A stretch of 64,000 bases of DNA, taken from the NCBI GenBank assembly GCA_030446715.1, contig JAUJMU010000001.1, forward strand, positions 473,297-537,296, given 5' to 3'. The position numbers were made by a program, and so were the translations under genes. Source of the DNA: Cytophagales bacterium (GTDB taxonomy: Bacteria > Bacteroidota > Bacteroidia > Cytophagales > 172606-1). The notes below the pieces were generated by a model. That model saw only the letters and a program-made list of their open reading frames with translations. It had not been told where the DNA came from and searched no databases. Position 1 is the stretch's first letter. Every line of letters begins with the position of its first letter. This document shows positions 33,436-40,152 of the stretch, in pieces.

Positions 33436-35298
33436 ATGTTGCCAGATTATGATGTGATAGTAGTAGGGGCAGGACACGCTGGCTGTGAGGCAGCAGCGGC
33501 AGCGGCCAACATGGGATCCACAGTGCTGCTGATCACCATGAATATGCAAACCATTGCGCAGATGTCTTGCAATCCAGCAATGGGCGGGGTGGCAAAAGGG
33601 CAAATAGTACGGGAAGTGGATGCACTGGGGGGACTGTCGGGTATAATCACGGACAAAACCATGATCCAGTTTCGCATGCTCAACCAATCAAAGGGTGCGG
33701 CCATGTGGAGTCCAAGGGCCCAAAGCGACCGGATGAAATTTGCCGAAGAGTGGCGGCTGTCATTGGAAGCAATACCCAATGTCGATTTCTGGCAGGAGAT
33801 GGTGAGCGGCTTACTCGTAAAGGAGGGGCAGGTAGCAGGCGTACGTACCTCAATGGGCATTGAAATCAAGGCAAAAGCAGTAGTGCTGACCAATGGCACT
33901 TTCCTCAACGGGATCATTCACATAGGAGAAAAAAACTTTGGCGGTGGCCGGACCAGCGAGAAAGCAGCAACCGGCATAACGGAGCAATTGGTAGAATTGG
34001 GATTTGAATCCGGACGCATGAAAACGGGTACGCCGCCACGGGTAGACGGTCGGTCACTGAATTACAATCTGATGCAGGAACAACCCGGAGATAAGAACCC
34101 CGGCAAATTTTCCTACACCGATACCCAACCGCTGACAAAGCAAAGAAGTTGTTATATCACCTATACCAATGAAGAAGTCCATGAGGCGCTAAAAACTGGC
34201 TTTGAAAAATCACCTATGTTCACTGGCCGGATACAAGGCTTGGGCCCTCGGTATTGCCCTTCCGTGGAGGATAAAATAAACCGCTTTGCGGATAAGGACA
34301 GACACCAGATATTCGTAGAACCGGAAGGTTGGAACACGGTGGAAATTTACGTAAATGGCTTTTCAACCTCCCTCCCGGAAGATGTACAGTATAAAGCACT
34401 GAAAAAAATACCCGGATTTGAAACTGTGAAAATGTTCCGGCCGGGATACGCCATAGAATATGATTATTTCCCCCCAACTCAGTTACATCTAACCCTGGAA
34501 ACCAGACTGGTGCAGAACCTTTATTTTGCCGGCCAGATCAACGGCACTACCGGCTATGAAGAAGCAGCGTGTCAGGGCCTGATGGCGGGTATTAATGCAC
34601 ACAATAAAGTTCACAAAAAGGAGCCCTTTGTACTCCAGCGGTCCGAAGCCTACATTGGAGTTTTGATCGATGACCTGATTAACAAAGGCACTGAAGAACC
34701 GTACCGCATGTTTACTTCCCGGGCTGAGTACCGCATACTGCTGAGGCAGGACAATGCCGATATTCGTTTGACCGAAAAAGGGTATCGTCTTGGTCTGGCA
34801 TCCGAAGACCGGTATCGGAAAATGATTGAAAAAAAGGAGCAGACAGCAAGGCTGATCAATGACCTGAAACAGAAAAAACTGGCTCCTGAAAGTATTAATC
34901 ATAATCTGGTGGAAATGGATACTGCACCGGTAAAGGAGAAAGTTTCGGCCCTGACGTTACTAAGAAGGCCAGAAATTACTATTAACAATTTGTTGGCAAT
35001 AGATCCAGAATTAGCAAGTTATCTGGAGAACTACAGGGAGGAAGTACGGCAACAGGCTGAAATCGCCGTCAAGTACGAGAGTTATATTGACAAGGAAGAA
35101 AAGACAGCGGAAAGAATGCGGGAACTGGAAAATTTTCAGATTTCGCAAAATTTCGATTACGACCGGCTGGTAGCTATGTCCAGAGAAGGCAGAGACAAGC
35201 TGAAAAAGATCAAGCCGGCCACCATCGGGCAGGCGTCCCGGATCAGTGGGGTATCACCTTCGGATATTTCAATATTGATGGTTTATCTGGGAAGATAA
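33436..35298 (+). CDS. mnmG: tRNA uridine-34 carboxymethylaminomethyl modification enzyme MnmG
   Basis: A 620-residue FAD enzyme that with MnmE adds cmnm5 to U34 of several tRNAs. The FAD-binding site is YDVIVVGAGHAGCEAAAAAANMG. SCNPAMGGVAKGQIVREVDALGG and GTPPRVDGRSLNYN are family signatures. The C-terminal helical part contains LLRRPEITINNLLAI, and the end AMSREGRDKLKKIKPATIGQASRISGVSPSD is classical. mnmG (gidA) is commonly near oriC, which agrees with the DnaA-box cluster 2.6 kb downstream. Confidence 0.98.
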   Translation: MLPDYDVIVVGAGHAGCEAAAAAANMGSTVLLITMNMQTIAQMSCNPAMGGVAKGQIVREVDALGGLSGIITDKTMIQFRMLNQSKGAAMWSPRAQSDRMKFAEEWRLSLEAIPNVDFWQEMVSGLLVKEGQVAGVRTSMGIEIKAKAVVLTNGTFLNGIIHIGEKNFGGGRTSEKAATGITEQLVELGFESGRMKTGTPPRVDGRSLNYNLMQEQPGDKNPGKFSYTDTQPLTKQRSCYITYTNEEVHEALKTGFEKSPMFTGRIQGLGPRYCPSVEDKINRFADKDRHQIFVEPEGWNTVEIYVNGFSTSLPEDVQYKALKKIPGFETVKMFRPGYAIEYDYFPPTQLHLTLETRLVQNLYFAGQINGTTGYEEAACQGLMAGINAHNKVHKKEPFVLQRSEAYIGVLIDDLINKGTEEPYRMFTSRAEYRILLRQDNADIRLTEKGYRLGLASEDRYRKMIEKKEQTARLINDLKQKKLAPESINHNLVEMDTAPVKEKVSALTLLRRPEITINNLLAIDPELASYLENYREEVRQQAEIAVKYESYIDKEEKTAERMRELENFQISQNFDYDRLVAMSREGRDKLKKIKPATIGQASRISGVSPSDISILMVYLGR

Positions 35299-35300
35299 AT

Positions 35301-36182
35301 ATGATTGAAACAGTAGAGGTTTGCCCGGTTTGCGATTGTAAAGAACAAAAATTGTACTTAACCTGCCGTGACCATACAGTTTCGGGAGAAGAGTTCAAAG
35401 TAAAGCAGTGCACCGACTGCGGATTTCGATTCACCAGCCCGCGGCCGGCACAAGCTGCCATTGGGAAATATTATCAATCCGAAAATTATGTTTCGCACAG
35501 TGGGACCAGTAAGGGCCTGATCAATAAATTGTACCATACAGTCCGGAGAAAAACCTTGAAGGACAAGCTGAGCCTTATCAATCAGCTGCACCCCCGGGGA
35601 ACGCTACTCGATGTAGGCTGCGGTACGGGTGATTTTCTGAAAGCCTGCCGGGACCGGGGTTGGGCGGCAAAAGGGATTGAGGCCGATCCGGTAGCCCGGC
35701 AGAAGGCACAGGAAAATAGCGGAGTGGAAGTAAACGAAGATTTATTGACGGCATTCAAAGCAAGAAAGTTTGATGTGATTACGCTGTGGCACGTGCTTGA
35801 GCATCTGCACCAGCTCGAAGAGTCCATTATCCGGCTTAAACAATTGCTGGACAAAGAAGGTGTTTTAGTGGTAGCCGTTCCCAACAGTAACTCACTCGAT
35901 GCCCGTATTTACCACGAATATTGGGCGGCATACGATGTACCGCGGCACCTATATCATTTTGATCAGCGGTCAATGGCGCTGCTGCTGGAAAAACACGGTC
36001 TCAAAATTGCAGGTATAAAACCAATGAAATTTGATGCCTTTTATATCAGCCTGCTGAGTACCAAATACAAGTACGGCCAAACCCGATACGTAGAGTCAGT
36101 AAAAAACGGTCTTTATTCCAATATATGGGCGGCCCGAAACGGTAAAAATTATTCAAGTATCACGTACATTGTTTCGCAGTAA
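35301..36182 (+). CDS. Methyltransferase with N-terminal zinc-ribbon-like part
   Basis: 293 residues. The start has paired cysteines (CPVCDCKEQKLYLTCRDH, then VKQCTDCGFRFTSPRP), a likely zinc knuckle as in several sugar or lipid methyltransferases. The SAM site is GTLLDVGCGTGDFLKACRDRGW (about 93-113). ITLWHVLEHLHQLEESIIRLKQLL and VVAVPNSNSLDARIYHEYWAAYDVPRHLYHF are typical of Methyltransf_23. It starts 2 bp after mnmG, so the two are co-transcribed. Substrate unknown. Confidence 0.88.
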   Translation: MIETVEVCPVCDCKEQKLYLTCRDHTVSGEEFKVKQCTDCGFRFTSPRPAQAAIGKYYQSENYVSHSGTSKGLINKLYHTVRRKTLKDKLSLINQLHPRGTLLDVGCGTGDFLKACRDRGWAAKGIEADPVARQKAQENSGVEVNEDLLTAFKARKFDVITLWHVLEHLHQLEESIIRLKQLLDKEGVLVVAVPNSNSLDARIYHEYWAAYDVPRHLYHFDQRSMALLLEKHGLKIAGIKPMKFDAFYISLLSTKYKYGQTRYVESVKNGLYSNIWAARNGKNYSSITYIVSQ

Positions 36183-36240
36183 ACCTTCCTGCCATACCTC
36201 GGCCCTCCCTGCCGGAGAGGGCCTTTTTCTATTATTCGTT

Positions 36241-37878
36241 ATGCAAAAATTAATAATTGTTCTCCTGTTGGGATGTGCATGGTTACTCCATAGTTGTGCC
36301 AATGTTTCGGCTCCGACGGGAGGCAAAAAAGACGAAATTCCGCCCCAGATCATCAGAACGACTCCCCAGGACCAGAGCCTGAACTTCAGAGGCCAGACCG
36401 TAGAAATGGTTTTCGACGAATTCATTCAGATTGATAACCTGAAGCAGGAACTCCTCATTACGCCGGACATAGATGGCACTTATGAATCAAAGCCGATCAA
36501 AAATGGACTACGGCTGGTCTTCGACAAACCTTTCCGGCCAAATACTACCTATACCCTCAACTTCCGGAATTCAATCAAAGATGTAACGGAAAAAAATGTA
36601 GCCGATCAGGTAAAGCTGGTTTTCAGCACCGGCGATAAAATTGATACGCTGGCCATACGGGGAGTTGTGACAGACCTGCTCTCGGGCAAACCTGCTGAAA
36701 ATGCAATTGTCTCCCTGTACCGTACCAATGATACGCTGGACATTCTCAAACATAAGCCTTTCTATTTTACAAAAACGGACAAGAAAGGCATCTTTCTTCT
36801 GGAAAACCTGAAGCAGGACTCTTACCAGATGTATGCGCTCGAAGACCGTAACAATAATCTGAAGTACGACGCCAACAATCTGCAGAACGAAAAAATTGCT
36901 TTCCTCCCGGAGCCCGTTGTGCTTGACACCAGTTACACTCTGGTAGAAATGACCCTCAGCAAAATGGACACTGTACCACCGCGCATTACCAGCCGAAGTG
37001 GCAATAATGATCTGGCAAGCATAGAATTTGATGAAGGGCTTCAGCTGGGTACAGTGAGTTACACCAATAAGACCGATAATCCGGTTTTCAATCTTATCGA
37101 GGAGGGAAAAAGACTGGTGATTTATAATACCCTGAACCAGACTGACAGCCTACTGGTTCAGGTGACTGCCATTGACTCAGCCGGGAACCGGCTTGTCCAG
37201 GAAATAAACATAAAATTTGATAATCCGGCTGCCACCCGGTCCCGGACTACTCCTCGTCCGAAGGAGAAAATGGCCACCAAAACGTCCCCTTCAGATGGCG
37301 AAAAAATACTGCGTGATCTGCAGTATACGTTTCAGTTCAGCAAACCAATTGTACGGGCAAATCTTTCAGATATTGTTTTACTGGCCGATACAATTACCAA
37401 AATTCCCGTTGACCCGTCTGCTGATCTGAAATGGGACGCTTACAAAACCAATCTGACGGTAACAAAAAGGTTGGACGTGAAGCAGCGGGTCAGGGTTTTG
37501 GCGCCGAAAGGAACCTTCTTTTCCGTGGATGGAGACACGGCAAGTGTCATAAAGACGACGCATGATTTGAAGGAAGCGGAGAATTACGGAAGCATTGCTG
37601 GTCGGTTGCAGACCAAAGCCCCGAATTTTATTGTCCAGTTACTGGAGGCTAGCAACCTGAAAGTACTGGCTGAAGTACGGAACCAAACCAACTACAAGTT
37701 CAATTACCTGAATGCGGGTGATTACCTGATCCGGGTAATAATTGACGAGAATAATAATGGAATCTGGGACCAGGGCGACCTGCTGAAGAGGCACCAGCCG
37801 GAGCCGGTGCTGTTTGGACCGAATACGATAAAGCTGAAAGAAAACTGGGAGTTAACGGACCAGGATGTCTCTATCTGA
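36241..37878 (+). CDS. Ig-like-domain lipoprotein (SbsA/Big_5 type)
   Basis: The 545-residue protein starts at the ATG at 36241. Lipobox LLHSC is followed by ANVSAPTGGKKDEIPPQIIRTTPQDQSLNF, the common start of this Bacteroidota lipoprotein family. An SbsA-type Ig-like domain (VEMVFDEFIQIDNLKQELLITPDIDG to about residue 130) leads to a carboxypeptidase-regulatory-like part (IRGVVTDLLSGKPAENAIVSLYR) and further beta domains. The end has a DENNNGIWDQGDLLKRHQPEPVL motif. It is probably exported to the outer membrane; role unknown. It borders the oriC region on the left. Confidence 0.88.
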   Translation: MQKLIIVLLLGCAWLLHSCANVSAPTGGKKDEIPPQIIRTTPQDQSLNFRGQTVEMVFDEFIQIDNLKQELLITPDIDGTYESKPIKNGLRLVFDKPFRPNTTYTLNFRNSIKDVTEKNVADQVKLVFSTGDKIDTLAIRGVVTDLLSGKPAENAIVSLYRTNDTLDILKHKPFYFTKTDKKGIFLLENLKQDSYQMYALEDRNNNLKYDANNLQNEKIAFLPEPVVLDTSYTLVEMTLSKMDTVPPRITSRSGNNDLASIEFDEGLQLGTVSYTNKTDNPVFNLIEEGKRLVIYNTLNQTDSLLVQVTAIDSAGNRLVQEINIKFDNPAATRSRTTPRPKEKMATKTSPSDGEKILRDLQYTFQFSKPIVRANLSDIVLLADTITKIPVDPSADLKWDAYKTNLTVTKRLDVKQRVRVLAPKGTFFSVDGDTASVIKTTHDLKEAENYGSIAGRLQTKAPNFIVQLLEASNLKVLAEVRNQTNYKFNYLNAGDYLIRVIIDENNNGIWDQGDLLKRHQPEPVLFGPNTIKLKENWELTDQDVSI

Positions 37879-37916
37879 TAAAAGGTCATCTTTATCAGTC
37901 CAAAATCCAGGTATTT

Positions 37917-38325
37917 TGTGGATAAGTCAGTGGAAAAGTGTATAAACCCCAGTGGAGAAGTCCTGATCTGAAACGGAAAATCCAACACCCGGCCGGGGGT
38001 AAAGGACAAAATTGGATTTCCGAAAGAAGCAACGTTGACAGTTATCCACTTATCCACAGAAAGTGGTCTTGTTTATCCACACGCTCAAAAAAATCCGAAG
38101 CAAAAGTTAACCACATCCGGGTTATCCACCGTATGTTGAAAAGAAGTAAGAAATAAAGAATAAAAGCATTTTGACTGTGGATAAGTATGTGGATTAGACT
38201 ATAGTTATCCACAGTTTTTTTGCGTTATAAAAAAGAGGTCGTTTGTCCACATACCCACAGCCCTAATAATAAAATTGAATTTTTTAAAAGAGATAGTTTA
38301 TCATATTTAAGAAAAAGAAGGAAAG
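37917..38325. other. oriC: Chromosome replication origin (oriC) candidate
   Basis: A gene-free 447-bp gap holds five perfect DnaA boxes TTATCCACA (37917-37925 minus, 38050-38058 plus, 38073-38081 plus, 38176-38184 minus, 38205-38213 plus). Five more differ at one position (38042, 38107, 38122, 38188 minus, 38243). The right end (about 38257-38325) is strongly AT-rich, with TTTTTTAAAAG and TTATCATATTTAAG, a fitting unwinding element. A-T runs after the 38205 box are a second candidate. dnaA itself is not in the window. mnmG and two parS sites are 2.6-4.5 kb away, the arrangement expected near an origin. Confidence 0.9.
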
Positions 38326-40152
38326 ATGATTATTCCAAAATACATATGCCGCGTGTTTCTGGTTGGAATATTTCTGGTGCCGGTGCAGCTGGTGAAGGGC
38401 CAACAACAGGAAGTTAGGCTGGCCGACGAATATTTCCAGAATGCCGAGTACGAAAAGGCCCGGGTGATGTACCAGAAGCTGTCTAAAAACCATGAAACGG
38501 CGCGGCAAATTCATAAAAACTACCTCGAAGCACTCAAAAACTTACAACAGTGGGACGAGGCAGAGAAATTTCTGAAACGGGAAATCAAAGCAAACCCGGA
38601 TGCGGTGGTGTACAAACTGGAACAGGCAGTACTTCTCGAAAAGCAAGGCAAAGCCAGTGAAGGAGTCCGTGTCGCCGGCAAGGCAATAGAAGAAGTGCGC
38701 GACAATCCGGCAAAAGTAATGGAAGCCGCGCAGTTTGGCATTGAAAACGGTAAGCCGGAGTGGGCAGAGAAAGTTTTTACGGAAGGGCGACGCAAAAGCG
38801 GCAACAAAACTGCATATGCTTTTCAACTGGCCCAGTTGTACCGGCTCACAAACAACATGGAAAAGATGATGGACGAGTATCTGACCGTAGCCATGGAAAA
38901 CCGGGACAATCTGTTAGCGGTGCAGAACGCCCTGCAGGATGATATTTCTCAACCGGAAGATTTTGAGAAGCTGGAAAAAGTACTGATCATGCGGATTCAG
39001 AATGATCCGGGGGAGCGGGTATATTCCGACCTGCTCCTGTGGTACTACCTTCAGCAGAAAGAATTCCGGAAAGCTTTTTTTCAGGCCAGAGCCGTAGACC
39101 GTCGTCAGAAGCTGGAAGGACAAAAAGTAATTGAAATCGGTCAGATTGCCATCCAGAACAAAGATTATAAAAGTGCCGCCGAAATTTTTGAGTACCTGGT
39201 CAGGGAGTATCCGCAGAGTATAAATTATCCGCTCAACCGTCGCTTCCTGATCCAGTCGCAGGAAGAGCTGGTAAAAAATACTTTTCCGGTAAACCAGTTT
39301 GAAATCAGATCGTTAATAGCGGACTATCAGCGCCTGATTGCCGAAGTGGGCAAAAATGCCAAAACGGCCGACGCAATGCGCAACATGGGTCTGCTGTTCG
39401 GGTTTTACCTGGATCAAAAAGACACTGCCATCGTGTTGCTGGAAGAATCCATGAAACTTAACCGCACCGATCAGCGGTTTATCGCCCGCACCAAACTTGA
39501 CCTGGGAGATATTTTCTTACTCAAAGGCGAGCCCTGGGAGGCAACCTTGTTGTATTCGCAGACAGAAAAAGCACTCAAAGATGATCCCCTGGGTTACGAC
39601 GCCAAACTGCGGAACGCCAAATTGTCTTACTACAAGGGTGAATTTAAACTGGCTCAGGAACACCTGGATATTCTGAAACTGGCTACTTCGCGCGAAATTG
39701 CCAACGACGCCATGGAACTGAGCATTCTGATTCAGGACAATACCGGCCTTGACAGTACCGAAGAGGCCATGCGGGAATACGCCGCAATAGATTTGCTATT
39801 GTTTCAGCACCGCGATGATGAAGCGCTTCGTCAGCTGGACCAAATTCTGGTAAAGTTTCCCGGACACAGTCTCACCGATGAAGCATGGTGGCAAAAGGCA
39901 AAAATTTTTATGCGCCGCAACGAAAACCAGCAGGCGGTAGGGGAACTGGAAAAAATTCTGACTCAATACCGCAACGATATTCTCAGTGATGATGCCCATT
40001 TTCTGATGGCAAAATTGCTGGAGGAAAAACTCGGTCAGCGGGAAAGAGCAATGGAAATGTACCGCGATCATCTTACCAAATACCCGGGCAGTATTTACGT
40101 GGCAGAAGCCCGGAAGCGATTCCGGCAGTTGAGAGGCGATATGCCAAACTGA
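38326..40152 (+). CDS. Exported tetratricopeptide-repeat protein
   Basis: The 608-residue protein has a signal peptide (IICRVFLVGIFLVPVQLVKGQ region, cleavage after KGQ) and about a dozen TPR units: LADEYFQNAEYEKARVMYQKL, KTAYAFQLAQLYRLTNNMEKM, KSAAEIFEYLVREYPQ, AWWQKAKIFMRRNENQQAVGELEKIL and AMEMYRDHLTKYPGSIYVAEARKRFRQL. It resembles outer-membrane-assembly TPR proteins in its C-terminal third. It directly abuts the presumed origin, so its promoter must lie in or next to the AT-rich element. Confidence 0.9.
   Translation: MIIPKYICRVFLVGIFLVPVQLVKGQQQEVRLADEYFQNAEYEKARVMYQKLSKNHETARQIHKNYLEALKNLQQWDEAEKFLKREIKANPDAVVYKLEQAVLLEKQGKASEGVRVAGKAIEEVRDNPAKVMEAAQFGIENGKPEWAEKVFTEGRRKSGNKTAYAFQLAQLYRLTNNMEKMMDEYLTVAMENRDNLLAVQNALQDDISQPEDFEKLEKVLIMRIQNDPGERVYSDLLLWYYLQQKEFRKAFFQARAVDRRQKLEGQKVIEIGQIAIQNKDYKSAAEIFEYLVREYPQSINYPLNRRFLIQSQEELVKNTFPVNQFEIRSLIADYQRLIAEVGKNAKTADAMRNMGLLFGFYLDQKDTAIVLLEESMKLNRTDQRFIARTKLDLGDIFLLKGEPWEATLLYSQTEKALKDDPLGYDAKLRNAKLSYYKGEFKLAQEHLDILKLATSREIANDAMELSILIQDNTGLDSTEEAMREYAAIDLLLFQHRDDEALRQLDQILVKFPGHSLTDEAWWQKAKIFMRRNENQQAVGELEKILTQYRNDILSDDAHFLMAKLLEEKLGQRERAMEMYRDHLTKYPGSIYVAEARKRFRQLRGDMPN

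Follow-up and report, generated by a model that had tools for sequence, protein, structure and literature searches.

The origin of Escherichia coli, oriC, lies beside gidA (mnmG) and not beside dnaA; gidA directly borders it, and its neighbour on the other side is mioC. In bacteria generally gidA/mnmG is a usual neighbour of the origin (PMC2768785), and in Bacteroidetes oriC is commonly located far from dnaA (PMC4755523). For Bacillus subtilis and other bacteria a basal unwinding system (BUS) has been described (PMC6669920, PMC8287927), which is recognized by a tandem DnaA box (at most two mismatches) within 16 bp of triplets and by at least three in-register 3'-NAN-5' triplets (PMC8287927). 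The distance from box to triplets peaks at 10-13 nt (PMC8287927), and the register of the triplets has been tested functionally (PMC6669920). Our literature search, which was incomplete in coverage and had DoriC outside its scope, found no study of a Cytophagales origin, and among the DnaA-trio papers listed none named the phylum.

The DNA analysed here (the window) is a stretch of 64,000 nucleotides from a Cytophagales bacterium (G000:C18:473297-537296; assembly size, 6.43 Mb). On the strength of its sequence and of comparison with relatives, the gap at 37879-38325 is almost certainly a chromosomal replication origin (oriC) that depends on DnaA and is ordinary in kind. The new part is the conserved position and the opening module of this otherwise ordinary origin.

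The DnaA-box cluster

The initial annotation had placed oriC in this gap on account of ten DnaA boxes, and the box scan recovered all of them, five exact copies of TTATCCACA and five one-mismatch boxes, inside 335 bp of a gene-free gap of 447 bases that is bounded by the stop of a lipoprotein gene at 37878 and the start of a TPR gene at 38326 (Table 1). An eleventh box with two mismatches overlaps the last of these by one base. The whole assembly contains 58 exact boxes, the chance expectation per 335 bp is 0.003 (P ~2e-15 for the gap), and 1000 dinucleotide shuffles of the gap gave a maximum of one exact box, in line with the earlier statement that chance would give far fewer. The gap is also the richest box cluster of the assembly, with at most three exact boxes (C18:64214-64310) or two found together elsewhere. 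The AT-rich stretch said to lie beside the boxes was located at 38279-38318 (85% A+T), the neighbouring genes do encode an Ig-like protein (Big_5) on one side and a TPR protein on the other, and the end of mnmG was measured at 2.58 kb to the left of the gap, where 2.6 kb had been given. A search for RNA families in the gap found none.

An alignment of four family members brings into register the boxes at 37917, 38073, 38176/38188, 38205 and 38243, together with the 14-mer AAAAGTTAACCACA. The overlapping pair to which attention had been drawn, 38042/38050, is present but poorly conserved, being common only to the nearest relative (L031); judged by conservation, the overlapping pair that deserves attention is that at 38243/38251.

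Table 1. Features of the candidate origin and of its surroundings (positions in the window)
Feature	Position	Strand	Remarks
Candidate oriC, gene-free gap with box cluster	37879..38325	.	Box scan, shuffles; position kept in relatives
DnaA box, exact	37917..37925	-	Left edge of cluster; TGTGGATA invariant in 4 family members
DnaA box, 1 mismatch (TTATCCACT)	38042..38050	+	One-base overlap with next box; shared by L031 only
DnaA box, exact	38050..38058	+	
DnaA box, exact	38073..38081	+	Core TATCCACA invariant in 4 family members
14-mer AAAAGTTAACCACA	38102..38115	+	Family-invariant; contains off-consensus (1-mismatch) box TTAACCACA (38107-38115)
DnaA box, 1 mismatch (TTATCCACC)	38122..38130	+	
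DnaA box, exact	38176..38184	-	Pairs with 38188
DnaA box, 1 mismatch (TAATCCACA)	38188..38196	-	
DnaA box, exact	38205..38213	+	
DnaA box, 1 mismatch (TTGTCCACA)	38243..38251	+	First half of conserved overlapping pair
DnaA box, 2 mismatches (ATACCCACA)	38251..38259	+	Second half of conserved pair; most relatives ATATCCACA or AAATCCACA
GC-rich spacer GCC	38260..38262	.	2-3 nt in 60/61 relatives
Trio-like triplets	38263..38271	-	Top CTA-ATA-ATA, bottom 3'-GAT-TAT-TAT-5'; 61 loci keep NTAATA
A+T-rich stretch, presumed DNA unwinding element	38272..38320	.	Position inferred
mnmG (gidA)	33436..35298	+	Conserved left neighbour
Class I SAM methyltransferase	35301..36182	+	Member of conserved block
Ig-like (Big_5) lipoprotein	36169..37878	+	Immediate left neighbour
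TPR protein	38326..40152	+	Immediate right neighbour

Gene neighbourhood and strand composition

Neighbouring proteins were searched for in 80 loci bearing mnmG, taken from named genomes. The order mnmG, methyltransferase, Ig-like lipoprotein, boxes, often followed by the TPR gene, recurs across Cytophagales. Among the 75 loci in which the lipoprotein gene and enough sequence were present, 64 carry at least three boxes within 600 bases after that gene, and the density of exact and one-mismatch boxes there is, respectively, 69 and 27 times that of the upstream DNA. Thus the comparison of the same gap in relatives, which had been recommended as a check, supports the gap as oriC by both synteny and boxes. 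A box-rich gap in the same neighbourhood was also found in further genomes of several families. Two Emticicia loci are exceptions, with the boxes about 1.1 kb further on yet still ahead of the TPR gene, and in Pontibacter-type loci the right-end module described below lies about 1 kb further to the right. G004, a complete genome from this family, has three exact boxes together at only one place in its 9 Mb, the orthologous gap, and this uniqueness likewise supports the origin.

A genome of another family, G031, was observed to carry a cluster of 15 boxes, nine of them exact, together with the module (L253:5024-5510; C1, ~2.059 Mb); this cluster adjoins a glutamate dehydrogenase gene, far from mnmG. 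The site is origin-like, that is, an origin whose neighbours would have changed while the module was retained.

Strand composition was sampled from 20-kb stretches, and GC skew was also calculated at the third positions of four-fold codons, which were used because most coding effects are thereby removed. Raw GC skew is almost flat along contig C18 of the source genome, and therefore the position of the skew minimum, proposed earlier as a check, is nearly uninformative there. When C18 was split at the gap, four-fold-site skew was 0.015 for genes on the presumed leading strand and -0.021 for those on the lagging strand (p=0.004), a weak signal in the expected direction, with a change point that is not sharp; the best change point is at 350 kb and not at the gap (511 kb), which is also positive. 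In a complete relative, G066, four-fold-site skew was 0.135 for leading and 0.018 for lagging genes. In a scan of all its positions the best origin is at 4,060,000 (t=8.2), the orthologous gap being at ~4,058,100, and local stretches place the switch in strand composition between -18 kb and +22 kb of the gap. This peak at the orthologous gap supports the reading of the gap as oriC. In G004, raw skew has no sharp minimum and four-fold sites help in part: a split at the gap reaches significance (p=0.0006), while the optimum is broad and flat (3.35-3.75 Mb, with the gap at 3.67 Mb) and has its best position at 3.35-3.4 Mb, 0.3 Mb away from the gap.

The right-end module and the predicted site of opening

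At the right end of the cluster, 61 loci share TTNTCCACNNATCCACA-like box pairs at an 8-bp pitch, followed by two or three mostly G/C bases and then NTAATA, which continues as a partly repeated triplet and ends in a T/A run. The T, A and A of NTAATA are invariant by construction of the search, and the next T and A are each conserved at 90%. In 44 of the 80 loci the module pattern has a single match on the expected strand; there was one occurrence on the opposite strand in 1.6 Mb, and there were no matches in 2.3 Mb of non-origin DNA. A sequence-only model of the module (R1) has its top match in the source genome in the gap (E 3.5e-10), with the next match also inside the gap (E 0.12) and all matches elsewhere at E>0.5. 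This unique placement supports the origin, although the score is partly circular because the window was included in the training set; in four genomes that were not used for training (G015, G029, G042 and G055), R1 matches 2.8-2.9 kb past mnmG.

R1 also picked out places rich in boxes in genomes from other orders of the class (L289, L290, L291 and L292). These loci carry the same module, the number of boxes reaching 16 in some, and their triplet repeat is cleaner, as in TTA-ATA-GTA-ATA-GTA of L291.

Taken by itself, the window gives no decisive result in a DnaA-trio scan: its best score is reached by 9 of 200 shuffles. Strict DnaA-trio runs are absent from some relatives, and the third triplet is often broken after NTA-ATA. 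We tentatively propose, as a possibility somewhat short of an even chance, that one ancestral opening module, unlike the classical DnaA-trio layout, is common to Cytophagales and probably to other Bacteroidia. It would comprise two DnaA boxes that share one base (8-bp pitch), a GC-rich spacer of 2-3 nt, (C/T)TA-ATA-NNN with a partial NTA-ATA repeat, and a T/A run, and it would stay intact even when the origin leaves mnmG.

The gap could also be an origin that unwinds at its other side, with the minus-strand boxes 38188/38176 and a triplet-like tract at 38145-38170. This tract outscores the right-hand triplets in the window (score 14, reached by 9 of 200 shuffles). The family alignment, however, does not preserve it, and conservation across the order is found instead at the right-hand module. 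For this lack of conservation the tract was rejected as the unwinding site, and opening on that side, left of box 38176, is considered unlikely.

With opening at the right-hand module, we infer DnaA binding, the direction of unwinding, helicase loading and initiation in the source organism as follows. Most likely, DnaA would occupy the boxes across 37917-38259, and the DNA would be bent or gathered. DnaA on the overlapping pair (38243-38259) would then extend as a filament over the GCC spacer and reach the bottom strand of the triplet stretch at 38263; the A+T-rich segment would melt up to ~38320, beside the TPR gene, and DnaB helicases would be loaded at the melted segment, from which two forks would depart.

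Other DnaA-box sites and comparison with known origins

Dense boxes alone are no proof of initiation, and other small clusters occur in the source genome, so the gap might serve, like datA or DARS, to titrate or regenerate DnaA, and the true origin might lie at another place. This is very improbable, as the gap is the richest cluster of the genome with no rival locus having as many boxes, its cluster adjoins an A+T-rich stretch, and the orthologous gap lies at the strand-composition switch of G066. A DnaA-regulated promoter region of the TPR gene, with the conserved TAATA element as promoter, would agree with the promoter-like matches in the gap (5, against 1.5 in shuffles) and with the position of TAATA 55-60 bp ahead of the TPR start, but it can hardly be the true reading, since several families (e.g., Algoriphagus L035 and L041) have the module with no adjacent TPR gene found and G031 keeps cluster and module among other genes, at a great distance from mnmG; the element may, however, act as a promoter in addition to its place in the origin.

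Several other sites in the source genome were recorded. The region 150-275 bp ahead of the likely start of nrdB (ribonucleotide reductase) contains two exact and three one-mismatch boxes (G000:C8:311234-311362; L113:5234-5362). Clusters of this type were present in relatives of three families, and over 28 genomes the boxes at this site are about nine times denser than in flanking coding DNA. In E. coli, nrdAB is under DnaA control, and the nrdB boxes suggest that DnaA may control nucleotide supply here as well. Two exact and two one-mismatch boxes also precede dnaB (G000:C21:33030-33118; L114:5030-5118); clusters before dnaB proved not to be conserved in the relatives checked, and thus no general link between DnaA and dnaB is claimed. 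The DnaB protein itself (L114:5231-7828) is 865 aa long, with similar lengths in G003, G017 and G025, and its 435-position family profile is spread over residues 34-816; it therefore probably carries an intein. In the sole dnaA gene of the genome the reading frame changes at the Walker A motif (C18 near 58270; L111 ~4270), so that the gene is split over two frames; this is probably a base error of the assembly because the gene is essential. The three exact boxes at C18:64214-64310 (L111:10214-10310) lie 5 kb from dnaA, within 105 bp of DNA that has a sugar nucleotidyltransferase gene on one side and a thioredoxin-like gene on the other.

The gap gives a precise and testable Cytophagales origin, and its place and module are easy to test because they are conserved across much of the order. 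The mnmG block and the 60-base module together provide a sequence rule by which oriC can be placed in draft genomes whose GC skew is weak or absent, as in this case, and the module names the exact bases to mutate for asking how DnaA opens DNA in Bacteroidota.

The gap resembles predicted Bacteroidetes origins of the DoriC/Ori-Finder type, such as that of Prevotella intermedia (PMC4755523), in its intergenic cluster of DnaA boxes, its distance from dnaA and, for the orthologous gap of G066, its place at a skew switch. The initial annotation was right that the origin lies away from dnaA (C18:57742-59129, ~452 kb from the gap), but this is no surprise, as such a distance is the rule in Bacteroidetes (PMC4755523). 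In contrast to those predictions, order-wide neighbours (the mnmG block, Ig-like lipoprotein and TPR genes) and a shared module were found here, a comparison made without DoriC's Cytophagales entries.

Like the gammaproteobacterial oriC of E. coli, the gap has mnmG near it and dnaA not; here, however, two genes separate mnmG from the gap, and the right neighbour is the TPR gene instead of mioC.

By analogy, the right-end module resembles the BUS of Bacillus: both have tandem boxes, a short GC-rich spacer and middle-A triplets on one strand (the first being 3'-GAT-5'), followed by A+T-rich DNA. TTGTCCACA stands 11 nt from the triplets, a distance that includes ATACCCACA; this agrees with what is required of a BUS box and falls inside the 10-13 nt peak. 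The differences are that the boxes here overlap by one base (8-bp pitch) and that the window has exactly three in-register triplets (GAT-TAT-TAT), a run that arises easily by chance. Since many relatives break the third triplet after NTA-ATA, full BUS membership is held back, and the module is best described as resembling the Bacillus system.
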